Positions 32,634-50,260 of a stretch of DNA of 50,260 bases are shown in pieces (the stretch's first letter is position 1; the number at the start of each line of letters is the position of its first letter). Location of the stretch: contig NZ_FNJQ01000027.1 of assembly GCF_900104055.1 (NCBI RefSeq), forward strand, positions 1 to 50,260. Reading direction: 5' to 3'. Position numbers and translations under genes: made by a program. Source of the stretch: Pseudoselenomonas ruminantium. Its GTDB lineage: Bacteria > Bacillota > Negativicutes > Selenomonadales > Selenomonadaceae. The notes under the pieces were generated by a model, which did not search any database, had not been told where the DNA came from, and worked only from the letters and a program-made list of their open reading frames with translations.

Positions 32634-32637
32634 GTCT

Positions 32638-33396: not shown

Positions 33397-33402
33397 TACG
33401 AT
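33374..33402 (+). promoter_or_regulatory. Promoter of the serine acetyltransferase gene
   Basis: TTGACA (33374-33379), 17 bases, TACGAT (33397-33402), overlapping the last codons of thiF. Confidence 0.6.
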
Positions 33403-33420
33403 AATATGAGAGAAAACAGG

Positions 33421-33461: not shown

Positions 33462-33493
33462 CGTATATGCATGGCAACAAAAAGGAGAACTTT

Positions 33494-34405: not shown

Positions 34406-34451
34406 TATACAAATAAATAGATTTTCTTCCTATATTTCTGTCAATTCACAC

Positions 34452-34479
34452 TTGCGCTTTGTTCTCAGCGTGTTATAAT
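34452..34479 (+). promoter_or_regulatory. Promoter between cysE and dhaL
   Basis: TTGCGC (34452-34457), 16 bases, TATAAT (34474-34479). A terminator-like hairpin begins only about 13 bases after the expected transcription start. Confidence 0.55.
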
Positions 34480-34498
34480 GGTTAGGTGTGTATTTATA

Positions 34499-34529
34499 AA
34501 CTCATTGTTTCCCCATCAATGAGTTTTTT
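34499..34529 (+). terminator. Terminator hairpin ahead of dhaL
   Basis: AACTCATTG (34499-34507) pairs perfectly with CAATGAGTT (34517-34525), followed by a T-rich stretch. It either ends cysE transcripts or attenuates the dhaL promoter. Confidence 0.75.
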
Positions 34530-34571
34530 AATTTTTATTCTAATTTACTTTATGCAAGGAGTATGTGTGTT

Positions 34572-35195
34572 ATGTCGAGAATTAAAGACGCCTTTGATGC
34601 CGTAGCTGAAGCGATTATTGCGCAGAAAGATTATTTATCGGATATTGACGCCAAGGCCGGCGATGGCGACCATGGCCTGAATATGGCCCGCGGCTTCCGG
34701 GCTGCCAAGGAAGCTTTGGATGATATGGATGATACGACGCAGATTGGCCCCGTGCTGAAAAAGATTGGCAAGAGCCTGATCCAGAACGTGGGCGGCGCAG
34801 CCGGCCCGCTCTATGGCGCTGCCTTTGTCAAAGCCAGCGAAGTCTGCGACGAAGAAACCCGCATGAACATCAAGAGCTTTGAAAAATTGCTGGCTGCAGC
34901 CATTGCCGCCATCCAGGAGCGGGGCCGTGCAGAGCAGGGCGACAAGACCATCCTCGATGCCCTGATTCCCATCCATGACTGCTTCCTGCCGGAAAATGTC
35001 GAGGACAAGAATCTCTTTGAAGTGCTGCAGGAAGCTTCCAAGGCCGCTGGTGATGGCGTGAACTACACGAAAGAAATCCCGGCAAAAAAAGGCCGCGCGA
35101 GTCTCGTGGGTGAGCGCAGCATTGGCGTCGAAGATCCCGGTGCTGTCAGCACCATGCTGATGTACCGTGCCCTGTATCAGTTCCTGAAGCGTTAA
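34572..35195 (+). CDS. DhaL-like dihydroxyacetone kinase subunit (DAK2 domain), orphan
   Basis: This 207-residue all-helical DAK2-domain protein resembles DhaL, the ADP-binding subunit of PTS-dependent dihydroxyacetone kinase. IDAKAGDGDHGLNMARGF contains the Mg-ADP-binding Asp and His residues, and NVGGAAGPLYGAAF and AKKGRASLVGERSIGVEDPG are conserved. Neither the DHA-binding DhaK nor the phosphotransfer DhaM is encoded nearby, so its partner must lie elsewhere or its role differs. ATG 34572 is preferred over 34563 because AAGGAG at 34556-34561 would abut the latter. Confidence 0.85.
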   Translation: MSRIKDAFDAVAEAIIAQKDYLSDIDAKAGDGDHGLNMARGFRAAKEALDDMDDTTQIGPVLKKIGKSLIQNVGGAAGPLYGAAFVKASEVCDEETRMNIKSFEKLLAAAIAAIQERGRAEQGDKTILDALIPIHDCFLPENVEDKNLFEVLQEASKAAGDGVNYTKEIPAKKGRASLVGERSIGVEDPGAVSTMLMYRALYQFLKR

Positions 35196-35230
35196 GCTTT
35201 ATCATAGTTATTTTTTAGGAGGAAGTTTCA

Positions 35231-36685: not shown

Positions 36686-36694
36686 TGCTATAAT
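36666..36694 (+). promoter_or_regulatory. Promoter of the tRNA-Glu pair
   Basis: TTGCCA (36666-36671), 17 bases, TATAAT (36689-36694), about 30 bases before the first tRNA. Confidence 0.65.
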
Positions 36695-36724
36695 AATTTG
36701 AGTCAGCGATAATCGACTGACCAT

Positions 36725-36799
36725 GGCGCCTTCGTCAAGCGGTTAAGACACCGGCCTCTCACGCCGGGTTCACGGGTTCGAATCCCGTAGGCGTCACCA
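36725..36799 (+). tRNA. tRNA-Glu (anticodon CUC), copy 1
   Basis: A complete 75-base cloverleaf with encoded CCA. The acceptor stem GGCGCCT pairs with AGGCGTC (one G-U). The anticodon loop is CTCTCAC, giving anticodon CUC for GAG codons; the T arm is ACGGG-TTCGAAT-CCCGT. Confidence 0.96.
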
Positions 36800-36801
36800 G
36801 C

Positions 36802-36876
36802 GGCACCTTCGTCAAGTGGTTAAGACACCGGCCTCTCACGCCGGGTTCACGGGTTCGAATCCCGTAGGTGTCACCA
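36802..36876 (+). tRNA. tRNA-Glu (anticodon CUC), copy 2
   Basis: Two bases after copy 1 and almost identical to it, with the same CTCTCAC anticodon loop and encoded CCA. It differs by a compensatory acceptor pair (G4-C69 becomes A4-U69) and one D-loop base (AAGCGG becomes AAGTGG). Confidence 0.96.
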
Positions 36877-36889
36877 ATTGCATAGAATC

Positions 36890-36917
36890 AGCCCCATCCG
36901 AAAGGATGGGGCTTTTT
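36890..36917 (+). terminator. Terminator after the tRNA-Glu genes
   Basis: AGCCCCATCC (36890-36899) pairs perfectly with GGATGGGGCT (36904-36913), a GAAA tetraloop, then a T run. Confidence 0.92.
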
Positions 36918-36936
36918 GGCTATATATTTGTGAGGA

Positions 36937-38337
36937 TCAGCAGCTCAGCTGACGCTGGCGCTGCAGAGACTGGCGTCGCTGGGCTTTCTGCTGCAAGGTC
37001 AGGAAACTATGCCGCTGCTCGTAGAGCAGGAAGGCTGAGAGCAGGACTGCTGTAAGATCTGCCGCCGGTACAGCCAGCCAGACGCCGCTGAAGCCGATAA
37101 GCTTTGGCAGGAGCAGCAGGAAGATCACGATGCCAGCAAAGTTGCGGGCAAAGGAGGCAATGGCGGAGGTCCTGCCATCGGCAATGGCCGTGAAGAAACC
37201 CGAGGTGAAGATATTGAACCCCGACAGCAGGAAGCTGAAGCCAAAGAGCAGGAAGCCATTGACGGTGATGCTGTAGGCTGAGCCACCGTCTGGCAGGAAG
37301 AGCTGGATCAGCGGTTCGGCCAGGAGGCGGGAGCCGGCAAAGGAAATCAGGGAGAAGATGCCGATGCTCAGAAGGGCCAGACGCATCAGCCGCAATAGTT
37401 CGCGGTAATTTTTCGCGCCGTACTGATAGGAGAAGATGGGCGCAATGCCGTTATTGAAACCGACGAGGATAGAGGTCAGCAGCATTTCTGCATAGAGGAT
37501 CACAGAGATTGCGGCTACGCCATCGGCGCCAGCCCAGGAAAAGGTGATGATGTTGAAGAGGTAGGTGGTCACACCTACGGAAAGTTCCGTGACCAGTTCC
37601 GAGGAGCCATTGTACATGGCCTGCAATAACATGCGCCATTCCAGTGTGGGTTTCATGAACCGGATCATGCGGCTGCGGCGGGCGAAGTAGTGAAGGCCTA
37701 TGATGGCCGCAGCTGTTTCGCCAAGGCCTGTACCCAGCGCAGCTCCCGCGATGCCCAGTCCCATTTTGGCCATGAAGAGATAGTCGAGGCAGGCATTGAG
37801 GATACCGGATACGACCGAGACGGCAAAGCCTTGGATGGGGCGACCATCAGCGATGAAGAGGGCGTTGAATATCATCATCATGGCTGCTGCCGGGAAGAAG
37901 GGCAGCAGCGTCACGATGTAGTTCACACATTCATCATAGAGGGCAGGACTGGCCCCAAGGAAGGCGAGCAGAGGCTCCATGAAGAGCCAGAGCGTAAGTG
38001 CCAATATGAGGCTCAGTACCACGCCGCTGATGGTAATCAGGGTGAACCGCCGGCTGGCGAGCTCGCGATTACCCTCGCCCAGGGTTTTGGCAACCAGTGC
38101 CGAACCGCCCGCGGCGAGCATAATGGCCAGCCCCAATACGAGATTGAACGCCGGATAGACGATATTCGATGCCGCCAGAGCGTCACTGCCAACGTAGCGG
38201 CCAATGAAGATGCCATCGGTGACGGTGTAGAGAGAGATCACGATCATCATGCCGATGGAGGGGGCCGCGAACTTCAGCAGTGACCACATACTGTGGTGAT
38301 AAGATAATGGATTACGGGTATTCTTACGCATAAACAT
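36937..38337 (-). CDS. MATE-family multidrug/toxin exporter
   Basis: A 466-residue membrane protein with twelve helices of the MATE family (MepA/NorM-like), which exports cationic compounds using a Na+ or H+ gradient. Typical stretches are FAAPSIGMMIVISLYTVTDG, FIGRYVGSDALAASNIVYP, and in the second half NNGIAPIFSYQYGA. It is divergently transcribed from a MerR-type regulator gene. Its promoter has the 19-base spacer and central dyad of a MerR-activated promoter, so drug-induced expression is likely. The substrate is unknown. Confidence 0.92.
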   Translation of the reverse strand: MFMRKNTRNPLSYHHSMWSLLKFAAPSIGMMIVISLYTVTDGIFIGRYVGSDALAASNIVYPAFNLVLGLAIMLAAGGSALVAKTLGEGNRELASRRFTLITISGVVLSLILALTLWLFMEPLLAFLGASPALYDECVNYIVTLLPFFPAAAMMMIFNALFIADGRPIQGFAVSVVSGILNACLDYLFMAKMGLGIAGAALGTGLGETAAAIIGLHYFARRSRMIRFMKPTLEWRMLLQAMYNGSSELVTELSVGVTTYLFNIITFSWAGADGVAAISVILYAEMLLTSILVGFNNGIAPIFSYQYGAKNYRELLRLMRLALLSIGIFSLISFAGSRLLAEPLIQLFLPDGGSAYSITVNGFLLFGFSFLLSGFNIFTSGFFTAIADGRTSAIASFARNFAGIVIFLLLLPKLIGFSGVWLAVPAADLTAVLLSAFLLYEQRHSFLTLQQKAQRRQSLQRQRQLSC

Positions 38338-38360
38338 TTTCCTTTCTCATAATAATCTGC

Positions 38361-38389
38361 TTGAATACTGGATTCGCATCTTGTATATT
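38361..38389 (+). promoter_or_regulatory. Promoter of the merR-type gene
   Basis: TTGAAT (38361-38366), 17 bases, TATATT (38384-38389). The expected start point falls on the -10 of the divergent MATE promoter, so regulator binding may affect both. Confidence 0.55.
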
Positions 38390-38390
38390 A

Positions 38391-38421
38391 AGCATAAAGG
38401 ATACAGTAACTGTAATGTCAA
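38391..38421 (-). promoter_or_regulatory. MerR-type promoter/operator of the MATE gene
   Basis: On the minus strand TTGACA (38421-38416) and TATGCT (38396-38391) are separated by 19 bases, longer than normal. The spacer holds the palindrome TACAGTTACTGTA (38402-38414). This overlong spacer with a central dyad is the hallmark of promoters that MerR-family proteins activate by twisting the DNA. Confidence 0.78.
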
Positions 38422-38433
38422 GGGGGATTTTTC

Positions 38434-39282
38434 ATGGCACGGCATATGACATTCCATATCGGTGAATTCGCTCGGATGACCGGGGTGAACAAACGGACGC
38501 TGCATTATTATGACAGCGAGGGCATCTTCAGTCCGGACTCGGTGGAGGCCAATGGCTATCGGGCTTATTCCTCACGGCAGTTCTATCCCTTCTATATGAT
38601 ACGCATGTTCCGGGATATGGGGCTGGAACTTGCAGAAATCAAAGAGTATATGGAAGGGCGTACGCCGGAAAGATTTGCCCGGCTGCTGGCAGAGCAGGAA
38701 GCATGGCTGAATCAGGAAATTGCCAAACTCCGGCGCATGAAACAGATTGTCGCCAATCAGCGGCAGGTCTTGGAGCAGGCCCGACAGGTGCAGCTGGATA
38801 TCGTGACAGAACAGGAACTGCCTGAGCAAAGACTGATGATTTCAGACGATTTGCGGCAGCTTTATCTGCAGGAAGATTGGGAAGGCGTGGAGCAGAAATT
38901 TGCCACGCATATGCGGGATGCGATGGAAGCCGGCCTTTTAATCGGGTATACCTTTGGGGCTATGGTGGCCAGGGAGGATTTCATGCGGCCAGGCTTTGAA
39001 CAGGTGGTTAGTCATTTCTATGTGGCAACGGATAGGAAATGGCGCAGGCTGCCCAAGGCGCAGCGCTGCCTAAGGCCGGCAGGGCGGTATGTCGTGACCT
39101 GTTTCGCCGGAGATTATATGGATACGACAGCTTCCTATGAAAGATTGCGCCAATATATGCAGGCACATGATCTCGAGGCAGCTGGTCCTTCCTTTGAAGA
39201 GAGCCTGCGCGAGGATATGAGCACGGCCAATCCGGCAGAATTCATCACTCGCATAGCTGTGCCCGTGCAAGGGAAAATTTAA
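38434..39282 (+). CDS. MerR-family regulator with effector-binding domain (BmrR-like)
   Basis: This 282-residue regulator has an N-terminal MerR winged helix (HIGEFARMTGVNKRTLHYYD, then NGYRAYS), a coiled-coil dimer helix at about residues 80-125, and a C-terminal half that looks like a GyrI/BmrR-type small-molecule-binding domain (GRYVVTCFAGDYMDTTASYERL). It probably senses toxic compounds and activates the divergent MATE exporter through the dyad at 38402-38414. The start is ATG 38434 behind AAGGGGG. Confidence 0.9.
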   Translation: MARHMTFHIGEFARMTGVNKRTLHYYDSEGIFSPDSVEANGYRAYSSRQFYPFYMIRMFRDMGLELAEIKEYMEGRTPERFARLLAEQEAWLNQEIAKLRRMKQIVANQRQVLEQARQVQLDIVTEQELPEQRLMISDDLRQLYLQEDWEGVEQKFATHMRDAMEAGLLIGYTFGAMVAREDFMRPGFEQVVSHFYVATDRKWRRLPKAQRCLRPAGRYVVTCFAGDYMDTTASYERLRQYMQAHDLEAAGPSFEESLREDMSTANPAEFITRIAVPVQGKI

Positions 39283-39292
39283 CGGTGCATAG

Positions 39293-39321
39293 TTCACTAT
39301 TACAGAAAAATATGCTAAAAT
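39293..39321 (+). promoter_or_regulatory. Promoter of rsmD-coaD
   Basis: TTCACT (39293-39298), 17 bases, TAAAAT (39316-39321), about 30 bases before the rsmD ATG. Confidence 0.55.
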
Positions 39322-39351
39322 GATAATGTTTCGTTAGTAGGGAGTGAGTGA

Positions 39352-39936
39352 ATGCGCATAATTACCGGTTCGGCCCGGGGCTGCCGCTTGAAGACGCCTA
39401 AGGGGGCCGAGGTGACAAGGCCTACGGCGGACAGGGTGAAAGAATCCCTGTTCAATATCTTAGGGAATCTGGTACAGGAACGGAAGGTGCTGGACATTTT
39501 TGCCGGTACCGGCAACCTGGGCTTGGAAGCACTTTCCCGGGGCGCAGCGTCGGCAGTATTTGTGGACAAAGCTACCGCCGGTCTGATCCGGGAGAATCTG
39601 GAACTTACGAGGCTGTCTGACAAGGGCACGGTCCGCAGCGGGGATGTCTTTGCAGAATTATCCCGGCAGTCCGCAGCGCAGGCTGGTTTCACGCTGGTTT
39701 TCTGCGATCCTCCCTATCATCAGGGGCTTTGGCAGCGGGCTTTGGTACAGATTGATGGTTCTGATGGCCTGATGGCAGAAGAGGGAATCCTCGTGGTGGA
39801 ACATGGCGCTGATGAAAATGACTATCCGGAATTATCCCGGCTGCAGTTGGTGCATAACCGCCGTTATGGGCATACCACGCAGATCAGTTTTTTCCAATGG
39901 CGTTCCTATATGGAAGCAGAGGAGGACGAAGTATGA
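39352..39936 (+). CDS. rsmD: 16S rRNA (guanine966-N2)-methyltransferase
   Basis: SAM-dependent methyltransferase acting on G966 of 16S rRNA. It starts MRIITGSARGCRLKTPKG, has RPTADRVKESLFNIL, the SAM-binding LDIFAGTGNLGLEALSRGA and the catalytic DPPY motif (FCDPPYHQG). 194 residues. Its stop codon overlaps the coaD start (ATGA), a common bacterial pairing. Confidence 0.95.
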   Translation: MRIITGSARGCRLKTPKGAEVTRPTADRVKESLFNILGNLVQERKVLDIFAGTGNLGLEALSRGAASAVFVDKATAGLIRENLELTRLSDKGTVRSGDVFAELSRQSAAQAGFTLVFCDPPYHQGLWQRALVQIDGSDGLMAEEGILVVEHGADENDYPELSRLQLVHNRRYGHTTQISFFQWRSYMEAEEDEV

Positions 39937-40427
39937 AGCGGGCGGTATGTTCGGGCAGTTTCGATCCGGTGACCATGGGGCATCTGGATGTCTTTGAACG
40001 GGCCAGCACCATGTTTGATGAGCTCATCATCTGTGTGTTCCGCAATGTGGAAAAGAGGGGATTTTTCCCGGTGGAACAGCGGGTGCAGCTGATAGAGGAG
40101 GCTGTTGCGCACTTGCCTAATGTGCGGGTGATGGCCTTTGACAGCTTGATCACCGACTTCATGGCGGCGCAGGATGCAAAGATTATCGTGCGGGGCGTGC
40201 GGTCGGTGAAGGATCTGGAATACGAGGAGAACGAAGCTTATATGATCAAGCATCTGAATCCTGAAATCGATACCGTGTTCCTGCTGACGCGGCCGGACCT
40301 GTCTTATGTGAGTTCTTCCGGTGTGCGGGAGGTTTTCCGCTTTGGCGGCAGTATAAATGGTTTGGTACCTGCCTGTGTGGAACAGGCGATGTTAGATAGA
40401 AAAAAAGCAGATGGGGAAAGGAAGTAA
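39933..40427 (+). CDS. coaD: Phosphopantetheine adenylyltransferase
   Basis: Fourth step of CoA synthesis: 4'-phosphopantetheine plus ATP gives dephospho-CoA. The nucleotidyltransferase motif is GSFDPVTMGHLDVFERA (TxGH type), and the C-terminal SYVSSSGVREVFRFGG is diagnostic. ATG 39933 overlaps the rsmD stop and gives 164 residues, the normal length. Confidence 0.96.
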   Translation: MKRAVCSGSFDPVTMGHLDVFERASTMFDELIICVFRNVEKRGFFPVEQRVQLIEEAVAHLPNVRVMAFDSLITDFMAAQDAKIIVRGVRSVKDLEYEENEAYMIKHLNPEIDTVFLLTRPDLSYVSSSGVREVFRFGGSINGLVPACVEQAMLDRKKADGERK

Positions 40428-40431
40428 CAGT

Positions 40432-41115
40432 ATGTCAGTACGCGAGACTTTGGATAGAATCGAGAATATGGTGGTGGGCGCCTCCCGGGTGCCCTTTACG
40501 GAAAAGACTTTAATCAACGACAACGAATTGGTGCATTATGTGGAGGAACTCCGCAATGACCTGCCCAAGGAGCTGAACCGCGCTGATGAGATCATGCGCG
40601 ACCGCGACCAGATCCTGAAATCCGCTGAGGAAGATGCGGAGGATATCCGCAATAAGGCCAAGGAATATGCGGCAAGCGTCATCGAGGAAAGCGAGATCGT
40701 CAAGCAGGCACGGGAAAAGGCCCGGGCTATCGTGCAGCAGGCCCAGGATCAGGAGCGCGAGATCATGGAACGCACCCAGGCCAATGCCACGCAGCTTCAG
40801 AACAATGCCGATGCCTATGCCAATCAGGTGTTCGACCAGCTCATCAGCCATGTGAACGGTACCTTCCAGGGCGTACGTCAGGCTGAGGCCGGCCTCCAGC
40901 AGGCACTCAATGTCCTGCAGCAGGCCAAAGCGCAGATGAATCAGCAGGCTGCCCGCCAGCAGCAGGAACAGCAGCAACAGCAGCAGCAATTGTTGCAGAG
41001 ACAGCAGCAGATGCAGCAACAGATGCAGCAACAGATGCAGGAGCAGTTGCAGGAGCAGGAGCCACACCAGCTGCAGCAGCAACAGCAGCGATTCATCTCC
41101 GCCAAGTCCGAGTGA
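40432..41115 (+). CDS. Coiled-coil protein with glutamine-rich tail, function unknown
   Basis: A 227-residue soluble protein. Residues about 1-30 are ordinary (RETLDRIENMVVGASRVPFT), residues about 40-130 form a charged helix/coiled coil (EIMRDRDQILKSAEEDAEDI, resembling the stalk of ATP-synthase b subunit or DivIVA), and the last 55-60 residues are dominated by Gln with Met and Leu. Position four bases after coaD, in the usual place for such a gene in these bacteria, suggests a cell-envelope or cell-division role, but I cannot name a function. Start ATG 40432 behind GGAAAGGAAG. The CAG/CAA repeats could vary in length between strains. Confidence 0.8.
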   Translation: MSVRETLDRIENMVVGASRVPFTEKTLINDNELVHYVEELRNDLPKELNRADEIMRDRDQILKSAEEDAEDIRNKAKEYAASVIEESEIVKQAREKARAIVQQAQDQEREIMERTQANATQLQNNADAYANQVFDQLISHVNGTFQGVRQAEAGLQQALNVLQQAKAQMNQQAARQQQEQQQQQQQLLQRQQQMQQQMQQQMQEQLQEQEPHQLQQQQQRFISAKSE

Positions 41116-41160
41116 TAGAGGCATAGAGGCCGGGGATGCGGCTGATGTTTTGTAAAAATA

Positions 41161-41189
41161 TTGACAAATAAAATTCCTCTCGTTACAAT
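41161..41189 (+). promoter_or_regulatory. Promoter of the rpiB-like gene
   Basis: TTGACA (41161-41166), 17 bases, TACAAT (41184-41189). Almost perfect consensus; the -10 lies inside the left arm of a long inverted repeat. Confidence 0.8.
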
Positions 41190-41219
41190 CATAATATCGT
41201 TTAGGATTGTAACGGGAGG
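41176..41219. promoter_or_regulatory. Long dyad over the rpiB-like promoter, candidate operator
   Basis: CCTCTCGTTACAATC (41176-41190) and GATTGTAACGGGAGG (41205-41219) are inverted copies matching at 14 of 15 bases. The dyad spans the -10, the start point and the ribosome site. The left arm is upstream of the transcription start, so a DNA-binding regulator is more likely than an RNA hairpin. Confidence 0.65.
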
Positions 41220-41226
41220 TTTTATT

Positions 41227-41688
41227 ATGAAAATTGCAATGGCTAACGACCATGCCGGGACGCGGCTTAAAGAGGAGATCAAGGCTTATTTGGAGAGTGA
41301 AGGCCATGAGGTCAAGGATTTCGGTACCTATGATGAGGAATCCTGCGACCTGTCGGATTTCGTTCTGCCGGCAGCTGCGGCAGTAGCCAAGGGCGAATGT
41401 GACCGTGGCATCTTTGTGGATGGCGTCGGCTATGGCAGTGCCATGATTGCCAACAAACTGCGCGGGATTTTCGCTGTGGTCTGCCAGGATCCGTTCTGTG
41501 CAGCGCTGGCCCGCCAGCACAACGACTCCAATGTGCTGTGCCTGGGCGGCAAGATCATCGGCGGCGCTATCGCCATGGAGACGGTGAAGACCTGGATGCA
41601 TACAGATCCGCTGACGGCTGAGAAATATGTGCGCCGCGTGGAGAAGGTCAAGAAAATTGATGCCGAGTTTACGGTGGCAGTAAAGTAA
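41227..41688 (+). CDS. RpiB/LacA/LacB-family sugar-phosphate isomerase
   Basis: A 153-residue isomerase of the RpiB family, most likely interconverting ribose-5-phosphate and ribulose-5-phosphate. It begins MKIAMANDHAGTRLKEEIKA and contains DFGTYDEESCDLSDF, a GYGSAMIANKLRGIFA stretch and ARQHNDSNVLCLGGKIIG. The usual CGTGIG motif is replaced by GVGYGSA, with Val in place of the Cys, a variant also seen in relatives of uncertain substrate such as LacA/LacB-like forms. ATG 41227 follows CGGGAGG. Confidence 0.88.
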   Translation: MKIAMANDHAGTRLKEEIKAYLESEGHEVKDFGTYDEESCDLSDFVLPAAAAVAKGECDRGIFVDGVGYGSAMIANKLRGIFAVVCQDPFCAALARQHNDSNVLCLGGKIIGGAIAMETVKTWMHTDPLTAEKYVRRVEKVKKIDAEFTVAVK

Positions 41689-41694
41689 TAAGCA

Positions 41695-41723
41695 TTGACA
41701 AAGCCCCATACGGTCGCTATAAT
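41695..41723 (+). promoter_or_regulatory. Consensus promoter of yceD-rpmF
   Basis: TTGACA (41695-41700), exactly 17 bases, TATAAT (41718-41723): a perfect sigma-70 promoter. Confidence 0.88.
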
Positions 41724-41743
41724 TATGTGAGGTTGATGCTGAA

Positions 41744-42244
41744 ATGATGAATATTAATATTGCTGAATTACAAACTGATTTAGGCAGGGAGCTGCCATTT
41801 GATTTTTCCGTGACGGCGGCAGAGATTGATGCCGAAAGTGATGACTATCAGTTCGCAGGTCCCATCAAGGTGACGGGAACGGTGGTCTACACGGGGATGC
41901 GCTGGCGCGTCAGCGGCAGGATCGAAGTGGTCAAGACCTTTGTCTGCAATCGTTGTCTGGCAGATTGCCGTGAAGAACAGGTGCACGAGTTTTCCGAGGA
42001 CTTCACGCGTGATGAAGGCGAGGATGACTCCATCAATGTCTTCAGCGGGGATTTGCTCGATATCGAGGACCTGGTGCATGACACCCTGCTGGCAGCCCAG
42101 TCCCTCAGTAATATATGCAAGCCCGATTGTAAGGGGCTTTGCCCAAAGTGCGGACATAACCTGAATGAAGGGGACTGCGGCTGTGACCGTTTCGTACCTG
42201 ATCCGCGCATGGCAGCATTACAGCAGTTATTGAACAAAGACTAA
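41744..42244 (+). CDS. yceD: YceD/DUF177 family protein
   Basis: A 166-residue protein of the YceD (DUF177) family, which is encoded next to rpmF in many bacteria and is linked to 23S rRNA or ribosome assembly. It carries cysteine pairs in FVCNRCLADC and a C-terminal ICKPDCKGLCPKCGHNLNEG stretch followed by DCGCD, likely zinc sites. Start ATG 41744 or 41747. The strong promoter fits a ribosomal-type operon. Confidence 0.92.
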   Translation: MMNINIAELQTDLGRELPFDFSVTAAEIDAESDDYQFAGPIKVTGTVVYTGMRWRVSGRIEVVKTFVCNRCLADCREEQVHEFSEDFTRDEGEDDSINVFSGDLLDIEDLVHDTLLAAQSLSNICKPDCKGLCPKCGHNLNEGDCGCDRFVPDPRMAALQQLLNKD

Positions 42245-42271
42245 AGAAAGTTTCAAGGAGGTGTATCCGAA

Positions 42272-42451
42272 ATGGCAGTTCCAAAGAGAAAAATGTCCAA
42301 GGCCCGCCGCGACCAGCGTCGTGCTAATTGGAAGCTGGAGGCTCCTGGCTTCGTAGCCTGCCCGCAGTGCCACGAACCGAAGATGCCCCATCATGTATGC
42401 CCGGAATGCGGCTACTATGACGGCAAAGAAGTCGTTGCTGCAGCTGAATAA
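42272..42451 (+). CDS. rpmF: 50S ribosomal protein L32
   Basis: A 59-residue basic ribosomal protein: [20 protein letters not shown], then two CxxC zinc motifs (CPQC and CPEC) spaced as in the four-cysteine form of L32. Ribosome site AAGGAGGTG lies just upstream. It ends the yceD-rpmF transcript at a shared convergent terminator. Confidence 0.97.
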
Positions 42452-42460
42452 GCGATAAAT

Positions 42461-42500
42461 AAAGCAGTGAGAAAGGTAGATACTTTCTCACTGCTTTTTT
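42461..42500. terminator. Bidirectional terminator between rpmF and deoR-type gene
   Basis: AAGCAGTGAGAAAG and CTTTCTCACTGCTT form a 14-bp perfect stem with A-rich left and T-rich right flanks, serving both convergent genes. Confidence 0.9.
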
Positions 42501-43248
42501 ATTCCCCAACCGGATACACATGAATTCCCTTGCCATGCAGCTGGCTCATGGTTTCACTGTCTGCCAGGTCGTCCGTGTAGAGGGCCGAGACTTGTTCAAA
42601 GGGCAGCAGCTTCACCGTGCCATGCGTCTTGAATTTGGCCGATTCGGTCAGCACGATGGTCTGTTCGGCCCGCTCGGCCATGACGCGGGTGGCTTCGGCC
42701 CGCATGAGGTCGTTGGACATAAAGCCGAGGTCATTGAGACCGTCCGTGCCCACAAAGAACTTGCTGACGTAGAAATCCCGCACGCAGCTGCGGATCATGG
42801 GGCCGACCATGACCTGCGATTCCTTCTGGTATTCCCCGCCCAAAAGGATTACGCGCACCTGCGGGTATTTGCGGATGTAATCGGCGATAAAGGCCGAGTT
42901 GGTGATGATGGTCACATCGCGGCGGTTGGCGGCGATTTCCTCGGCCAGCAGCGCACAGCAGCTGCCGGACTCGATCATGATGGTTTCCCCATTGTGCACG
43001 CTTTCGGCCGCCCGGCGGGCAATGCGCAGCTTCGCTTCGTAGTTGAAGGAAAGGTGGTTGCCCACATCGTCGCTGGTGGTCAGCCGGGCATAGCCGTGTT
43101 CCCGGCGCAGCAGTCCCTTTTTTTCCAATATATTCAAGTCCTTGCGGATGGTCACTTCCGAAACATCCAAAGCCTTGGCCAGTTCCGTCACCGCAATGCG
43201 GTTGTGCTGGTTCACGAGGCTCAGCAGTTTGCTATGACGAATATGCAT
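42499..43248 (-). CDS. DeoR-family transcriptional regulator
   Basis: About 249 residues with an N-terminal helix-turn-helix (RHSKLLSLVNQHNRIAVTEL, EVTIRKDLNILEKKGLLRREHGYA) and the C-terminal DeoR sensor domain related to RpiA-type isomerases (MIESGSCCALLAEEIA, FVGTDGLNDLGFMSNDL). Such proteins sense a sugar phosphate. ATG at 43248 is chosen over 43257 because the GGGG ribosome site lies at a proper distance only from the former. No sugar operon is adjacent on this strand; the RpiB-type gene 1 kb away is a possible but unproven target. Confidence 0.92.
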   Translation of the reverse strand: MHIRHSKLLSLVNQHNRIAVTELAKALDVSEVTIRKDLNILEKKGLLRREHGYARLTTSDDVGNHLSFNYEAKLRIARRAAESVHNGETIMIESGSCCALLAEEIAANRRDVTIITNSAFIADYIRKYPQVRVILLGGEYQKESQVMVGPMIRSCVRDFYVSKFFVGTDGLNDLGFMSNDLMRAEATRVMAERAEQTIVLTESAKFKTHGTVKLLPFEQVSALYTDDLADSETMSQLHGKGIHVYPVGE

Positions 43249-43329
43249 AAAAATCATCCCCTGTCGTTTTCTCTAACGTAAGTATAACATAATCGGCAGG
43301 CATTTCAAATGAAAGCGATAAAAGCGCAC

Positions 43330-43358
43330 AAAAAAACCGCCCCGAGGGACGGTTTTTT
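43330..43358 (-). terminator. Terminator of rpsT
   Basis: On the minus strand ACCGTCCC and GGGGCGGT form a GC-rich stem followed by a run of T; A-rich bases precede it. Confidence 0.85.
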
Positions 43359-43377
43359 TCTATCTCATCTGAGAAAA

Positions 43378-43644
43378 TTACTTAGCGAGTGCGTTCACTT
43401 TGCGAGCCAGACGGGACTTTTTGCGAGCTGCACAGTTCTTGTGGAACACGTGGTTAGCTGCAGCCATGTCAATGGTCTTGCAAGCAGCTGTGAGGAGGGA
43501 TTTCGCTTCATCAACGTTTCCAGCCTCAACAGCGTCGAGAACACGACGGGAAGCAGTGCGTACACGGGACTTCTCAGCAGCGTTCTTCGCACGGCGCTTA
43601 GCGTCAGATTTTACACTAAGAATAGATGCTTTAATATTCGGCAA
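43378..43644 (-). CDS. rpsT: 30S ribosomal protein S20
   Basis: An 88-residue, very basic helical ribosomal protein: PNIKASILSVKSDAKRRAKN, then RRVLDAVEAGNVDEAKSLL and HKNCAARKKSRLARKVNA. The start is taken as TTG at 43644, because AGGGGGG lies about eight bases upstream and the length then matches S20. An in-frame ATG at 43662 would place that ribosome site inside the gene. Divergent from lepA, the usual arrangement. Confidence 0.95.
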   Translation of the reverse strand: MPNIKASILSVKSDAKRRAKNAAEKSRVRTASRRVLDAVEAGNVDEAKSLLTAACKTIDMAAANHVFHKNCAARKKSRLARKVNALAK

Positions 43645-43680
43645 GTAGTTCACCCCCCTCAAATGATTCGTTACCTAGCT

Positions 43681-43709
43681 ATTTTAGCACGCCCTTTGCC
43701 AAAAAGCAA
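43681..43709 (-). promoter_or_regulatory. rpsT promoter
   Basis: On the minus strand TTGCTT (43709-43704), 17 bases, TAAAAT (43686-43681). Confidence 0.65.
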
Positions 43710-43739
43710 TAGTTTTTTGCGTTGTGCTGACTATATTTC

Positions 43740-43769
43740 TTGCAGGGGAGGGGGAAAATGCGTTATAAT
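43740..43769 (+). promoter_or_regulatory. lepA promoter
   Basis: TTGCAG (43740-43745), 18 bases, TATAAT (43764-43769), about 30 bases before lepA. Confidence 0.6.
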
Positions 43770-43801
43770 GACTGTTATATGGAAAGAAGTGCGAAAGGAA
43801 A

Positions 43802-45604
43802 ATGACCATGCAGAACAAGAATATCCGCAATTTCTCGATCATTGCCCATATCGACCACGGCAAATCCACCATTGCGGACCGCTTGATTGAATATACCGGA
43901 ACGCTGACACAGCGTGAAATGGAAGCGCAGGTCCTCGACAATATGGACCTCGAGCGGGAACGCGGCATCACGATCAAGGCTCAGACCGTGCGCCTTGACT
44001 ACAAGGGCAAGGACGGGGAGATGTATCAGCTCAACCTCATCGACACCCCGGGCCATGTGGACTTCACCTATGAGGTTTCCCGCAGCCTGGCTGCCTGCGA
44101 AGGAGCATTGCTTGTCGTGGATGCGGCGCAAGGCGTTGAGGCGCAGACCTTGGCCAACGTCTATATGGCCCTCGAAAACGATCTGGAAATCGTGCCGGTC
44201 ATCAACAAGATTGATCTGCCCAGCGCTGATCCCGACCGCGTGAAGGAAGAGATTGAAAACTCCATCGGCCTGGATGCCACGGATGCGGTACTGGCTTCGG
44301 CCAAGACGGGCATCGGCATTGAAGAGATCCTCGATGCTATTGTAGAACGCATTCCGGCACCGGAAGGGGATGAGAATGCTCCGCTGCAGGCGCTGATCTT
44401 TGACTCCTTCTTTGATTCCTACAAGGGCGTTATCGCCCATGTGCGCGTCAAGCAGGGCAAGATCAAGAAGGGCATGCGACTCAAGATGATGGCTACGGGC
44501 AAGACCTTTGAAGTCACGGATGTGGGCTGCTTCAAGCCCCAGCCTGTGGATGTGGGCGAGCTCAATATGGGTGAGGTTGGCTTTGTGGCAGGCTCTCTCA
44601 AAGATGTCCGCGATGTGCGGGTGGGCGACACCATCACCTTTGCCGACAAGCCGGCGGCCGAGCCGCTGCCCGGCTACCGCGGTGTGACGCCGATGGTTTA
44701 CTGCGGCCTGTACCCCGTGGAAAGCTCCGACTATGACAACCTCAAGGACGCGCTCGAAAAGATGCAGATCAATGATGCAGCTTTGGTGTTCGAGCCGGAA
44801 ACTTCCGTGGCCCTGGGCTTTGGTTTCCGCTGCGGCTTCTTGGGGCTCCTGCATATGGATGTCATTCAGGAGCGCTTGGAGCGTGAATATCATCTGAAGC
44901 TCATCACCACGGCGCCTTCCGTTATCTACCATGTGTTCAAGACGGATGGTTCGGTACTCAACGTCAGCAACCCGGCCGAACTGCCGCCGCAGACGGAAAT
45001 CGAGCATATCGAGGAACCATTCGTCAAGGCTACGGTGATCGTGCCCAATGATTTCGTCGGCGCGGTCATGGAGATTTCGCAGGACAAGCGCGGCGTGTTC
45101 AAGAATATGGATTATCTCGACACCAACCGCGTCATGATTACCTATCATATCCCGCTCAACGAGATCATCTTCGACTATTTTGACCGCCTGAAGTCCGCGA
45201 CCAAGGGCTATGCTTCGCTGGACTATGAACTGGCAGATTATCAGGAGTCCAAGCTCGTGAAGGTGGATATCCTGCTGAACGGTGATCCCGTGGATGCGCT
45301 TTCGACCATCGTGCATAAGGACAGAGCCCAGAGCCGCGGCCGCCAGTTGGCCTCCAAGCTCAAGGAAATCATCCCGCAGCAGATGTTTGAGATTCCGATT
45401 CAGGCAGCCATCGGTTCCAAGGTCATTGCGCGTGAGAACGTGCGGGCACGGCGCAAGGACGTGCTGGCCAAGTGCTATGGCGGCGATATCTCCCGTAAGC
45501 GCAAGCTTTTGGAGAAACAGAAGGAAGGCAAGAAGCGCATGAAGGCGGTTGGCTCGGTAGAAGTGCCGCAGGAAGCCTTTATGGCCATTTTGAAGATAGA
45601 TTAA
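43802..45604 (+). CDS. lepA: Elongation factor 4 (LepA)
   Basis: A translational GTPase that acts on stalled or mispositioned ribosomes. AHIDHGKST (from residue 15) is the P-loop, [18 protein letters not shown] is switch [13 protein letters not shown] is G3 and [10 protein letters not shown] is G4. The LepA-specific C-terminal domain is present ([20 protein letters not shown] region). 600 residues, normal length. It starts a pair with hemW 12 bases downstream. Confidence 0.97.
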
Positions 45605-45616
45605 AGGAAGATCGTT

Positions 45617-46756
45617 ATGCAATGGGGAGTTTATATCCATATTCCCTTTTGCCGGCAGAAGTGTTTCTATTGTGATTTTCCCTCCTATGCCGGGCGGGAA
45701 AATCTGATGGAAGCCTATGTGGAAGCCCTGTGTCAGCAGATCAAGATACAGGGCTTTTCCTATCGGCAAAAGTGGGGCAGGCCTGCGACTGTTTATATCG
45801 GCGGCGGTACGCCTACGGCACTGCCCTTGGAAAATATGGCGCAGATCCTGCAGACTGTGGAAAATTTCATCGGTGCGGAGATTGCGGAGTTTACGGTGGA
45901 ATGCAATCCCGGCACAGTCGATGCGCAGTATCTGCAGATGCTGAAGGCAAATGGCGTCAATCGGCTGAGTTTTGGCGTACAGAGTTTTGACGACGGGCTG
46001 CTCAGGCGGATCGGGCGCATCCATAATAGTGCGGAAGCTCTAGAAGCAATCCGGTTGGCGCAGGAAGCAGGTTTTGCTAATATCAGCCTGGACTTGATAT
46101 ACGGCCTGCCGGAGCAAACGATGGAACAGCTGCAGGCCAGTGTCGGGCAGGCGCTGAACCTGGGTGTCCAGCATATTTCCATCTATGGCCTGCAGGTGGA
46201 GGAAGGCACGGTCTTTGCCCGCCAGCAGGAATTGGGTAAATTGGACCTGCCTGCCGAGGAAGAGGCCGAAGCCATGTATGACTATATGACCAATGTCCTG
46301 CCACAGCATGGCTATTTGCGCTATGAAGTGTCCAACTTTGCTCAGCGCGGCTATGAAAGCTGCCATAACCGCAGCTATTGGCATGATGTGCCCTATTTAG
46401 GCCTCGGCGCGGCGGCCCATTCCTATCTGGAGGGGAAACGCTATGCGGCTGTTGCGGATATCCAGGAATATATCGCCGGGATAAAGGCGGGGGATGAGAT
46501 CTGGAAGCTGGAGGAAGAGCCAACCCGCCAGCACGCCATGGAAGAATTTGCCTTTTTGGCTTTGCGCACGGTCGAAGGCCTTGCGGCCCGGGATTTTGCG
46601 CAAAAGTTTCAGGTTTCCCTGCAGGAAATCTATGGTGAGACTATGGCAAAACTGGCACAGCAGGGATTGCTGCAGGTCGATGACAATGGCTGCCGTCTGA
46701 CAAATCAGGGATTTAAATATGGCAATGTGGTCTTTGCGGAATTCATATTGGACTGA
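45617..46756 (+). CDS. hemW: HemW, heme chaperone/radical SAM protein
   Basis: Radical-SAM protein related to oxygen-independent coproporphyrinogen oxidase. The start IHIPFCRQKCFYCDFPSY holds the cluster cysteines C12, C16 and C19, followed by VYIGGGTPTAL, NPGTVD and GVQSFDDGLLRRIGRIH. The CxxxCxxC spacing without the extra CNxC cysteine of HemN favours HemW. 379 residues, ATG 45617. The usual downstream hrcA-grpE-dnaK genes are absent here. Confidence 0.93.
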   Translation: MQWGVYIHIPFCRQKCFYCDFPSYAGRENLMEAYVEALCQQIKIQGFSYRQKWGRPATVYIGGGTPTALPLENMAQILQTVENFIGAEIAEFTVECNPGTVDAQYLQMLKANGVNRLSFGVQSFDDGLLRRIGRIHNSAEALEAIRLAQEAGFANISLDLIYGLPEQTMEQLQASVGQALNLGVQHISIYGLQVEEGTVFARQQELGKLDLPAEEEAEAMYDYMTNVLPQHGYLRYEVSNFAQRGYESCHNRSYWHDVPYLGLGAAAHSYLEGKRYAAVADIQEYIAGIKAGDEIWKLEEEPTRQHAMEEFAFLALRTVEGLAARDFAQKFQVSLQEIYGETMAKLAQQGLLQVDDNGCRLTNQGFKYGNVVFAEFILD

Positions 46757-46777
46757 TTGCTGTTTAGGGGGTATAAT
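46748..46777 (+). promoter_or_regulatory. Promoter of the deacetylase gene
   Basis: TTGGAC (46748-46753), 18 bases, TATAAT (46772-46777), overlapping the last codons of hemW. Confidence 0.5.
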
Positions 46778-46830
46778 GGGAAGGTATTCGAGAATTATGA
46801 ATTGGGAATTTGATTTGGGGGCGCTGTAAG

Positions 46831-47745
46831 GTGAAAAGCAAGAGTTTTACCAGGATAATCGGTGTCTTGGTGGGAATAGCCGTATTAGGCGGTATAGCAG
46901 GAGCGGCCTGGCTGGCGAAGGTCAAGGCAACGGAGCCGGCAGTTACGGCGGCTTCGGAGGCCGTGGAGGAACCGGGAGTGGAGTCCCCGGCCTATACCCT
47001 GGCCAAAGGGGATTATAGCAATCTGACCTATGACAATATCCATTTGGATAAGCCGGTCTATGACCGTTATACCCTAAAGCAGCGGCAGGAGAAAGGCCTG
47101 CCCACGATGCTGCCGGCCCTGCCGCGTTATACGGCGGAAAAGGTGGCCTATCTGACCTTTGACGATGGTCCTGATGGCAAGAATACGCCGGCCATCCTGG
47201 ATATCCTGAAGAATTATGGTGTCCATGGTACCTTCTATGTGCTGGGCGGCATGGTGGAGAAGCATCCGGACGTATTGAAGCGGATCTTTGCCGAAGGCCA
47301 TGCCATCGGCAATCACAGCTATGACCATGATTATCATAATCTCTATGCCAATAAAGAGAGATTTATCGAGGAGATGGAGCATACTGATGACATCATCATG
47401 AATACCATCGGCGTGCGTCCCTTTATCATCCGTGCCCCGGGCGGTACTGTGGGCATGTTTGCCAACGATTATTATGAGGCCTTGAATCTCTTAGGCTATG
47501 TGGAGCATGACTGGAATGTGCTGACGGAAGATGCTACGCCGAAAAAGCCCAATGCTTATCAGCAGCTCCAATATGTGGATAGAAGGACACAGGGGCATCT
47601 CAAGGACAATATGGCGTTGATCCTCATGCACTGCAACGGTGGCAAGGAAGAAACCGTGAATGCCTTGCCGGGAATCATCGAAAATCTTGCGGCGAAGGGC
47701 TATCGTTTTGGTGTGGTGACGCCAATCACGCCACAGCCATGGTAA
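46831..47745 (+). CDS. Membrane-anchored polysaccharide (peptidoglycan) deacetylase
   Basis: A NodB-domain (CE4) deacetylase of about 304 residues with an N-terminal membrane anchor (IIGVLVGIAVLGGIAGAAW). Motif 1 is LTFDDGPDGKNT with the catalytic and metal-binding Asp residues, motif 2 is GNHSYDHDY, motif 3 is IIRAPGG and the later EHDWNVLTEDA. It probably removes acetyl groups from peptidoglycan or an exported glycan outside the membrane. GTG 46831 is chosen with GGGGGCG upstream; TTG 46810 is an alternative. It is followed 20 bases later by another exported cell-wall-type enzyme. Confidence 0.9.
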   Translation: MKSKSFTRIIGVLVGIAVLGGIAGAAWLAKVKATEPAVTAASEAVEEPGVESPAYTLAKGDYSNLTYDNIHLDKPVYDRYTLKQRQEKGLPTMLPALPRYTAEKVAYLTFDDGPDGKNTPAILDILKNYGVHGTFYVLGGMVEKHPDVLKRIFAEGHAIGNHSYDHDYHNLYANKERFIEEMEHTDDIIMNTIGVRPFIIRAPGGTVGMFANDYYEALNLLGYVEHDWNVLTEDATPKKPNAYQQLQYVDRRTQGHLKDNMALILMHCNGGKEETVNALPGIIENLAAKGYRFGVVTPITPQPW

Positions 47746-47765
47746 ATAAACTTTAGGTATATACA

Positions 47766-48731
47766 ATGAAAAGGAAGGTTCGTCATTCCGTGACATTCAA
47801 ACGGATTTTTACTTTTTTCGCAGTGGTGGCGACTTTAGAAGTGGGCGGCATAGTGTCCGCTGCTCTATGGATGCATCATGGCGATGGGAAATTGGCAGCC
47901 CAGGCGGCTGCTAATTTCGCTATGGGTGAGAAAAAAAGCATACGTACGGACCGGGCGGCTGACGAGGGGGATCTGCAGGCCAATACGGCCCGCATCATCG
48001 GCACGAGCAAAAATCAGATGTCGGTTTATTTCCTGCGCCCGGACCGGGAGATCGAGCCTTTCCTTTACAACCAGAGGCAGATGTCTCCGGCCAGCATCAT
48101 CAAGCTCTTTGTCATGGCCAAGACCATGCAGGATGTCCATGACGGCAGACTGTCCCTGGAGGACAAGGTAACCATCAGGAAGAATGACGTGGTGGGCGGC
48201 GCTGGTGTCACAACCTGGTATGACATCGGCCAGCAGCGCACGATACGGCAGCTGCTGACGGTCATGATCACCGACAGCGACAATACCGCCACCAATATCC
48301 TGATCGACAAGCTGGGCATGAAGAACATCAATCAATACATCGCCCAGTCCGGCTACAGCGATACCGTGCTGGCGCATAAGATGATGCTCAGCAACGGCGG
48401 GCGCAAAAACCTGTCCTCGGTCAGGGATCTGGGTCATCTGCTGACCAAACTCTACTATCATCAGCTTGTAGGCCCTGAGGAAGATGAATTCATGCTGAGC
48501 GTCCTGAAGCAGCAGCATGACAAGGAATGTCTGGGGTCAGCCCTGAACGGCTACACGATTGCCCACAAGACTGGCGAAGTCACTGGCGTCTATACCGATG
48601 GCGGTATCTTCATTGGCAAGGATGAAGATTTCATCCTCGTCATCATCAACAACGGCACGGAAGGCCGTGTCGATACCATTGACAAGATGCAGCAGCTGGC
48701 TCGCTATTATGCTGGGACAACAAAGAACTGA
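47766..48731 (+). CDS. Membrane-anchored serine hydrolase, class A beta-lactamase fold
   Basis: A 321-residue protein with an N-terminal membrane segment (about residues 15-38) and a beta-lactamase/PBP-like domain. The catalytic triad motifs are present: SxxK at S110-K113 (MSPASIIKLFV), SDN at 171-173 and KTG at 268-270. No convincing Glu166 omega-loop motif (ExxLN) is seen between SDN and KTG, so it is more likely a peptidase-like enzyme acting on peptidoglycan than a true beta-lactamase. Pairing with the deacetylase upstream supports a cell-wall role. A strong terminator follows. Confidence 0.87.
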   Translation: MKRKVRHSVTFKRIFTFFAVVATLEVGGIVSAALWMHHGDGKLAAQAAANFAMGEKKSIRTDRAADEGDLQANTARIIGTSKNQMSVYFLRPDREIEPFLYNQRQMSPASIIKLFVMAKTMQDVHDGRLSLEDKVTIRKNDVVGGAGVTTWYDIGQQRTIRQLLTVMITDSDNTATNILIDKLGMKNINQYIAQSGYSDTVLAHKMMLSNGGRKNLSSVRDLGHLLTKLYYHQLVGPEEDEFMLSVLKQQHDKECLGSALNGYTIAHKTGEVTGVYTDGGIFIGKDEDFILVIINNGTEGRVDTIDKMQQLARYYAGTTKN

Positions 48732-48859: not shown

Positions 48860-48890
48860 TTGTGGGGGGGGGCATATGTGCTAATATAAT
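48860..48890 (+). promoter_or_regulatory. Promoter with G9 tract in the spacer, upstream of ribbon-helix-helix gene
   Basis: TTGTGG (48860-48865) and TATAAT (48885-48890) are 19 bases apart. Nine consecutive G (48864-48872) reach from the last two bases of the -35 into the spacer. Loss of one or two G would bring the spacer to 18 or 17 bases. Confidence 0.5.
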
Positions 48891-48932: not shown

Positions 48933-49100
48933 ATGTTCCAAGTCCGACAGACCGAAGAAATGATCAATAAAACATTCCGCCTCCCGCAAAGCCTATTGGA
49001 GGAACTCACCAAAGTGGCCGAGTCCGAGCACGTATCGGTAAACAACCTCGTCCGCCAATGCTGCGAATACGCCCTCAGCAACATGAAAGCCGAGAAATAA
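48933..49100 (+). CDS. Small ribbon-helix-helix (Arc/MetJ-type) DNA-binding protein
   Basis: A 55-residue protein, MFQVRQTEEMINKTFRLPQS then LLEELTKVAESEHVSVNNLV. It has the beta strand (KTFRLP) followed by two helices of the ribbon-helix-helix fold, with the second helix beginning SVNNLVRQCCEYAL, as in Arc-type repressors and antitoxins. ATG 48933 has AAAGGAAG ten bases upstream; ATG 48912 would put that site inside the gene. No toxin gene is adjacent, so a stand-alone regulator is likelier than an antitoxin. It lies next to wbaP, and could control it. Confidence 0.82.
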   Translation: MFQVRQTEEMINKTFRLPQSLLEELTKVAESEHVSVNNLVRQCCEYALSNMKAEK

Positions 49101-49106: not shown

Positions 49107-49170
49107 AAGGCTGAAAAAAAAGCCTTCCCCTTGAGGGGAAGGGGAACCGCTTCAGCGGTGGATGAGGTGG
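49107..49170. repeat. REP-like double hairpin element, terminator on the minus strand
   Basis: CCTTCCCC-TTGA-GGGGAAGG (49123-49142) is followed by ACCGC-TTCA-GCGGT (49146-49159) and GGATGAGGTGG. AAGGCT/AGCCTT (49107-49126) gives an alternative stem. On the minus strand the first hairpin runs into eight T. The two-hairpin-plus-GGATGAGGTG layout resembles interspersed elements I recall from Negativicutes genomes. Confidence 0.6.
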
Positions 49171-49193: not shown

Positions 49194-50260
49194 ATGACAT
49201 TGACCGCAGATACTAACCAAAATTCCATAAGGCAAAAGGCGAGGCGTTATCTGGCACCGGTTCTGTTCCTGCTGACTGATTATGTGGCCGTCATTCTGAC
49301 CGGTCAAATGTCAACGTCAATCTATGACCTGTCAATCCACAGGGCTTATCTATACTTTTGGCTGCCCTTGACGTTCCTGTTATTTCTCGCCCAGTCAAGA
49401 ATCTACAATACCATGCAGCCATTTATCTACACCGTGCGCAGCATCTTCTACGGCATATCCTATGCCATGCTGGCCTGTGTGGCAGCGCTGTATTTCTTCA
49501 CGAGTTGGCAGGCGCCGCGCTCTTTTTTCATAGTTTTCTGGCTATTAATGCTAATCACGATTTACTGCGAACGACTGGCCGTCAGCTTTTATCTGAAACA
49601 CCGTCATCATCTTTACGAGGACGTAATCATGATTGGTGCCGGCAAAACCGCCGAACGCGCCCTGCATTTCTTCAAGGATGACTTGGGCTATCGCTATCAT
49701 ATCGCCGGTTTCATTGACGATCATCCCGTTTCGGATAAAATTCCCCAGCGCTACAACTTGTTGGGAACTGTGGCTGAGGCGGAGCAGATCATAAAAAACA
49801 TTAATGCCAAAACGGTGATCATCACAGCACCAGGTATGGAACGGGATAAACTCCAGCATCTGATCACCACAGTCCAGCCGCATGTAAGGCATCTGTCCTA
49901 TGTGCCGGATCTCATTGGTACCCCAATGGCCGATGTAGAAGCACAGTCTCTGTTCAGCGAAGAAATCCTGATGCTGCATATGAAGAATAATCTGGCCCTG
50001 CGTCGTAATCGGATTTACAAGCGAGCCTTTGACCTGATTTTGACTACTATCGGCGGATTGGCAATCAGTCCGATTCTGTTAGCGCTTGCGATTTGCATCA
50101 AGCTGGATTCCAAAGGCAGTGTATTCTACAATGCAGATCGTATTGGCAAAGATGGCAGGAATTTCAAATGCTACAAATTCCGTTCCATGCATGTCAATGG
50201 CGATGAAATCCTCAGAGATTATCTGGCAAAGAATCCTGTTGCCGCTGAAGAATGGAAAAA
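49194..50260 (+). CDS. wbaP: Undecaprenyl-phosphate sugar phosphotransferase (WbaP type), N-terminal part
   Basis: The gene begins at ATG 49194 (after AAAGGAAT) and runs off the right edge after about 356 codons. Residues about 15-130 contain four to five membrane segments (LAPVLFLLTDYVAVILTG and on). A Rossmann-like domain follows (DVIMIGAGKTAERALHFF, then IAGFIDDHP, near residues 142-260), and the sugar-transferase domain opens with KRAFDLILTTIGGLA, then [11 protein letters not shown]. Its last 198 bases repeat positions 1-198, and the frame continues there to a stop at 556. The joined protein has 474 residues. It would begin the lipid-linked repeat unit of the glycan locus. Confidence 0.94.
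   Translation, partial: MTLTADTNQNSIRQKARRYLAPVLFLLTDYVAVILTGQMSTSIYDLSIHRAYLYFWLPLTFLLFLAQSRIYNTMQPFIYTVRSIFYGISYAMLACVAALYFFTSWQAPRSFFIVFWLLMLITIYCERLAVSFYLKHRHHLYEDVIMIGAGKTAERALHFFKDDLGYRYHIAGFIDDHPVSDKIPQRYNLLGTVAEAEQIIKNINAKTVIITAPGMERDKLQHLITTVQPHVRHLSYVPDLIGTPMADVEAQSLFSEEILMLHMKNNLALRRNRIYKRAFDLILTTIGGLAISPILLALAICIKLDSKGSVFYNADRIGKDGRNFKCYKFRSMHVNGDEILRDYLAKNPVAAEEWK
50063..50260. repeat. Terminal direct repeat, right copy
   Basis: Identical to 1-198 and inside the wbaP gene. It permits circular closure at 50,062 bp. Confidence 0.97.

Follow-up and report, generated by a model that had tools for sequence, protein, structure and literature searches.

Identical wbaP-internal ends of a 50-kb Selenomonas contig, and candidate promoter inversion at polysaccharide loci of the genus

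The two ends of the DNA stretch analysed here are identical and a gene reads through their join, which raises the question of whether the stretch is a circle, a tandemly duplicated unit or a linear piece of chromosome that was broken at a repeated gene. The window, i.e., the whole stretch of 50260 bp, is the complete contig C56 (NZ_FNJQ01000027.1), which rules out that the overlap was added when the sequence was cut. The identity of positions 1-198 with 50063-50260, described in a previous sequence-only reading, was confirmed, and it is the sole exact end-to-end match among lengths 20-1999 (198 bp). The same reading had reported an intact wbaP frame across the join; indeed, 49194-50062 followed by 1-556 forms one open frame of 474 amino acids plus stop. 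The ends of the window carry the following features.

1..198, + strand: left copy of the terminal overlap, in the 3' part of a wbaP gene; exact match to 50063-50260.
50063..50260, + strand: right copy of the terminal overlap, in the 5' part of another wbaP copy; exact match to 1-198.
2..556, + strand: 3' part of the left-hand wbaP, with a Pfam Bac_transf match; its 5' part lies most likely on contig C51, from synteny with the relative G017.
49194..50260, + strand: 5' part of the right-hand wbaP, with Pfam CoA_binding_3 and the start of Bac_transf; its 3' part is not on C56.

The Pfam search found Bac_transf in both wbaP parts and CoA_binding_3 in the 5' part. The name wbaP is taken over from the earlier reading and stands for a predicted WbaP-like sugar transferase, with the sugar not specified.

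The source genome (G000) is a Selenomonas draft of 3.21 Mb in 71 contigs, 99.98% complete. The possibility, raised earlier, that it holds a single wbaP was ruled out, given that wbaP-like matches are also present on C45, C43, C30, C51 and C19. Six 5' ends of wbaP occur in this genome (window right end, C51, C45, C43, C30 and C19) and four 3' ends (window left end, C45, C43 and C30). This excess of beginnings means that contig breaks interrupt some of the copies. The exact overlap of 198 bp is not due to chance and is explained by the several copies of wbaP in this genome. Furthermore, contig ends lie within identical stretches and the two ends of the window have different neighbours, the latter by synteny only. 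The counts of wbaP ends and the contig ends in identical patches support the first cause proposed by the earlier reading, namely that the assembly was joined at near-identical wbaP copies on either side of the segment. As judged from the sequence, the identical ends are what assembly ordinarily yields at a repeated gene and not the mark of a circle. The window would start inside one wbaP and stop inside another, each heading a different polysaccharide locus. The two copies would have at least 198 identical bases in common, probably via recombination or gene conversion, and the assembler would have been unable to pass this identical patch, so that contig C56 would stop there at both ends and the ends would coincide. 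In strain ATCC 12561 (G003), two contigs, L081 (G003 C12) and L082 (G003 C15), likewise end within wbaP-like genes.

The identical patches stand out from the divergence of the gene copies. The right-hand wbaP of the window differs from the C51 copy in 58 of 1067 columns, with the final 213 identical, and from the C19 copy in 46 of 458 columns, with an identical run of 251 bp that reaches the contig end of C19. The copies on C45 and C30 have 125 identical bp amid a background of 77%. Shuffling of the columns reached the longest run in 4 of 10000 trials for the window right/C51 pair (213 bp) and in none for window right/C19 (251 bp) and C45/C30, while codon-wise shuffles of the same three pairs reached it in 1, 0 and 0 of 10000. 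The evidence is weaker for other pairs, for which 427 (C56R/C45), 33 (C51/C45) and 124 (C45/C43) of 10000 shuffles reach the longest run. These perfectly identical patches in diverged wbaP copies are probably a mosaic left by recombination or gene conversion, and the conserved function of one WbaP domain could add to their identity.

The content of the window between its two wbaP parts bears directly on whether it could be a mobile element.

558..17696, + strand: polysaccharide locus behind the left-hand wbaP, recognised by family searches; the match to G017 resumes at 17697.
17697..48731, no strand assigned: core-gene block with uppS, dxr, proS, thiH, lepA, hemW and others, largely colinear with G017.
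48933..49097, + strand: leader open reading frame (ORF) of 55 amino acids upstream of wbaP, Arc/ribbon-helix-helix-like (Pfam Arc, E 7e-6).
49117..49169, no strand assigned: short interspersed repeat between the leader ORF and wbaP, palindromic-looking, with similar copies on many contigs of the source genome.

The left polysaccharide locus encodes DUF4422, Wzz-like and DUF6418 proteins, a glycosyltransferase and UDP-galactopyranose mutase. Genes of pseudaminic-acid type (PseC, PseG, NeuB family and cytidylyltransferase) are also found in it, with those of PseC, PseG and the NeuB family at window 11446-16586. At window 47766-48731 lies a gene for a class A beta-lactamase-like protein, which scores 86.6 against a 200-bit NCBIfam cut-off and occupies the same place in relatives.

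Synteny was assessed against the relative G017, which is assembled in 10 contigs, with C1 having 3,003,680 bp. Window 17697-29714 aligns at 87% to G017 C1:667971-679998 and window 44356-48731 at 84% to C1:695000-699384, and the segments 31000-36918, 39271-40974 and 41161-48731 keep their order on that contig, between 681274 and 699384. The colinearity is incomplete, given that window about 37004-39271 matches G017 C1 elsewhere. A real circle of 50 kb, whether a plasmid or an excised element, with its closure in wbaP would be in line with the exact terminal overlap and the intact gene across it. Nonetheless, such a circle is hardly credible, because the window carries core genes, the matching block lies within a 3.0-Mb contig of G017, and the several wbaP copies account for the overlap. 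The excised circle suggested by the earlier reading thus finds no support in the gene content or in G017, which places different sequence on each side of the matching block. A plasmid or excised circle, which should be absent from the chromosome of relatives and free of core genes, was rejected on both gene content and synteny. That reading had also offered a tandem duplication of the 50-kb segment through wbaP, in all or some cells. The repeats at both ends could recombine and the contig itself is compatible with this; however, G017 gives different flanks for the matching block, and with different neighbours at both ends no duplication is needed, which leaves it unsupported and very improbable. 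What stood of the earlier interpretation is therefore the assembly break at a repeated wbaP, and neither the circle nor the duplication.

The reading of the window as a linear chromosomal piece leads to the identity of its neighbours. Positions 77348-80986 of C51 have 92% identity with G017:640000-643637, an alignment that extends to where a serine recombinase gene ends; for the leader region of C51, the identity with G017:643866-644139 is 74%. The protein encoded by the leader ORF of the window is 100% identical to one on C51. The order in G017 is C51-type genes with the recombinase gene, leader ORF, wzz, a polysaccharide locus, and then the block matching window 17697 onward, which begins 24 kb beyond the leader; no wbaP is found in G017 between leader and wzz. 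From this gene order, C51 would therefore run into window base 1, and the 5' wbaP of C51 and the 3' part at the left end of the window would be one gene. C51 is identical to the window over 1-225 and is most likely its left neighbour. Against this link, the last two bases before the 10-N gap of C51 are TA and those of the window are CA, which leaves one mismatch in the proposed overlap. In C51 as deposited, the wbaP piece is oriented opposite to G017, which we take as a scaffolding error.

On the right-hand side, the genes that follow the beta-lactamase-like gene in G017 are found in the source genome on C17 and then on C61. Read toward those genes, C17 starts in the middle of wzz and continues with apparent glycan and sugar-nucleotide genes, named by reading their translations. 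The most likely right neighbour is C17, less firmly than C51 on the left, and C17 would fit a second polysaccharide locus that lies beyond the beta-lactamase-like gene and is headed by the right-hand wbaP of the window. This link comes from synteny with G017 alone, with the intervening 3' part of wbaP and the start of wzz missing. The stretch examined after the beta-lactamase-like gene showed no wbaP in HD4 (G013) or G010, and four ORFs of G017 after this gene gave no match in Pfam. Beside the second polysaccharide locus, C17 (L186) has at about 11743-12081 of its reverse complement an ORF of 112 amino acids that by eye resembles the C-terminal part of a serine recombinase. A linear piece with other neighbours, in which the left-hand wbaP is the copy on C19 or C40, instead of C17, follows on the right, is compatible with the fact that C19 stops in the 251-bp patch identical to the right-hand copy and that C40 also begins in wzz. 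The gene order of G017 favours C51 and C17, and other neighbours are considered unlikely. We hold it as highly probable, given the sequence and the synteny, that the window is a linear piece of chromosome ending in two wbaP copies, with C51 and C17 as its likely neighbours and its left locus behind an invertible promoter.

The invertible promoter is suggested by the head of C51, where two inverted sites of recombinase type and the serine recombinase gene stand in front of the polysaccharide locus that occupies window 1-17.7 kb. Leader and wbaP are on a 1.45-kb piece of C51 that has AGTGTCAAAAAGTACAC as its very first bases; these 17 bases are found again after the N gap, next to the recombinase gene. 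A search of the source genome with the site pattern gave both C51 sites and one match with 3 mismatches on C28, while no such site was found in the window. When this genome was searched with the promoter segment of G004, only the site-like ends on C51 and weak short matches were obtained. The promoter segment of C51 seems to be missing from the assembly, in which only its two sites appear to be assembled. The left-hand wbaP and its locus would sit behind this invertible promoter, and inversion would make the promoter point to the operon (ON) or in the other direction (OFF), giving phase variation of a surface polysaccharide.

Sites of this type, TCAAAAAGTRYACTTTTTGA-like and near-perfect palindromes, are present in 16 of 22 genomes of the genus when searched with a degenerate pattern at up to 1 mismatch; in 6 of the 22 no site was found with this pattern, and a backward-pattern control had matches in 1 of 22. 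At the same stringency, 53 forward-strand sites were counted in the genus genomes. Examination of 29 loci around sites, with up to 2 mismatches allowed, gave 24 complete site pairs from 14 genomes. All 24 head leader/wbaP/wzz (the adjoining feature being the leader ORF in 16, wzz in 7 and wbaP in 1), and each encloses a promoter-bearing segment of about 150 bp that heads a polysaccharide locus. The segments have in common a promoter-like T(A/G)GAC(A/T)-17 bp-TATAAT (TACAAT in G012), which by best consensus score, and not by RNA, faces the genes (ON) in 6 of 24 and away from them (OFF) in 18. The spacing of the sites is 145-147, 153, 156-159 or 168 bp in 23 of the 24 pairs, at loci that have common descent; the distance of 199 bp in G020a spans an N gap, and this pair was left out of the spacing set and kept in the ON/OFF count. 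No more than one ON promoter was found per genome in the eight of eight genomes with at least two complete pairs, which with a chance probability of 0.48 is no evidence for a limit of this kind. Most invertible segments (L075-L089, L206-L224) hold an internal TCTCAAAAAGT-like half-site. Exact inverted arms of at least 11 bases were also sought upstream of 98 wbaP matches, some of them duplicates of one locus; distant loci gave few short arms in this search, which had no control and overlooked all three heads of G010.

Reversal of the segment is seen when related loci are compared. The locus of G018 is 86% identical to that of G009 over 5.2 kb, and the 165 bp spanning both sites are 98% identical in the opposite orientation. 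Between G018b and G019a the segment is reversed at 93% and the flank has 95%, and in the more distant pair G020a and G003a the segment is reversed at 97% with a leader flank of 88%. Within G010, a genome assembled in one contig, heads a and c have a segment that is 98% identical when reversed, next to a flank with leader and wbaP that is 89% identical. In G002, two contigs overlap across one invertible segment. By inspection, no more than 150 bp separate at least 5 of the 53 sites from a contig end versus an estimated 0.42 expected (an estimate made with the lengths of all contigs but one), and most of the 53 are not at ends. Contig breaks at the sites are compatible with a mixture of orientations among the cells sequenced, and nearby repeats could also cause them.

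The C51 recombinase has 218 amino acids and matches PF00239. Among solved structures, the closest to it is Sin/Bin3 (2r0q, E 8.8e-30), with DNA invertase chains scoring lower, and it aligns with Sin including the YxRVSS stretch, which presumably holds the catalytic serine. By its PF00239 match and the 2r0q alignment it is like the serine recombinases of Sin/Bin3 and gamma-delta type. Sin and gamma-delta are resolvases; in contrast, the inverted sites in Selenomonas predict inversion. In the stretches examined, 10 of the 16 site-bearing genomes, the source genome included, have a recombinase gene of the C51 type (relatives 65-94% identical) near a site, within about 0.5 kb in 7 genomes and at about 1.6 kb in 3. 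One recombinase may serve all the sites of a genome. The palindromic sites could instead be operators for a regulator such as the Arc-like protein of the leader, given that they are near-perfect palindromes and that the leader ORF encodes a predicted DNA-binding protein. This is quite improbable, because the segment enclosed by the sites occurs in reverse between unchanged flanks, a serine recombinase gene lies close to a site in those 7 genomes, and sites at contig ends exceed the number expected. The reversal of the segment between unchanged flanks disfavours palindromes that are mere operators. The polysaccharide loci are well-supported candidates for phase variation by promoter inversion, as far as genome comparison can tell, and for C51 we infer that its recombinase flips the promoter, that expression depends on the orientation and that the culture used for sequencing contained both orientations.

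The right-hand locus of the window has a head of another kind.

48864..48872, + strand: run of nine G before TATAAT, the only G or C run of at least 7 in the window; candidate slippage-controlled promoter of the right-hand locus.
48885..48890, + strand: TATAAT, candidate -10 box read from the sequence by consensus only.

The same poly-G stretch precedes leader and wbaP on C45, on C30 and in G008, and all four heads of the S. ruminantium group that have the tract show nine G in the assembled consensus. Runs of G8-G10 after the same ATGTCTTG also precede wbaP in L173-L177 (Anaerovibrio slackiae and a Selenomonadaceae MAG). A poly-G of 8-10 G between the conserved ATGTCTTG and a TATAAT-like box is found in two genera (L030:17986, L032:12240, L084:9634 and L173-L177). 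Among the six wbaP heads of the source genome, one has invertible sites (C51), three have poly-G (window, C45 and C30) and two have neither (C43 and C19). Promoters controlled by homopolymer slippage are known, of the Neisseria porA/opc type, and the Selenomonas heads are like these in that a G run shortly precedes the -10 box of genes for surface structures. The position of the run before the -10 box suggests slippage control of the promoter. A possible, although doubtful, extension is a surface switching of three layers in rumen Selenomonas, in which one recombinase would flip the promoters of several polysaccharide loci, poly-G tracts would tune other loci, and recombination at the near-identical wbaP heads would re-pair heads with downstream operons.

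Invertible capsule promoters controlled by Mpi are described for Bacteroides fragilis, and capsule switches for B. intestinalis, with the repeats ARACGTTCGTN in the part of PMC8375218 that was available. The Selenomonas heads are like Bacteroides Mpi, as presented in that part, in having a promoter segment of less than 200 bp within inverted repeats, several polysaccharide operons per genome, a serine recombinase and both orientations. They differ from what this portion of the paper (PMC8375218) describes in belonging to another phylum and in having sites that are TCAAAAAGTRYACTTTTTGA-like and not ARACGTTCGTN. Also unlike Mpi, as far as the same portion describes it, the recombinase gene is beside one switch and 16 of 24 pairs are followed by an Arc-like leader ORF. 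The predicted Selenomonas switches resemble Mpi in their working and would not be members of the Mpi family, given that the repeat sequence differs. For Mitsuokella multacida DSM 20544, 181 invertons found by PhaseFinderDC are given in the section available of PMC11892184, with many in Negativicutes-like gut genomes. These include promoter-type inversions in the same wider bacterial group; neither Selenomonas nor the present sites are described in that section of the text, and overlap with them is possible. The search of one literature collection listed no paper on invertible promoters, DNA inversion or phase variation of this sort in Selenomonas. The kind of system is already known, and its use at polysaccharide heads across Selenomonas was not found described.

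For assembly and annotation, the lesson is that multicopy heads of polysaccharide loci can give a contig exactly overlapping ends that join into an intact gene, without a circle. If the reading of three layers is true, a locus could move between a promoter switched by inversion and one switched by slippage. Promoter inversion at polysaccharide loci is indicated across rumen Selenomonas, and such switching of the surface would bear on phage resistance and on persistence in the rumen.
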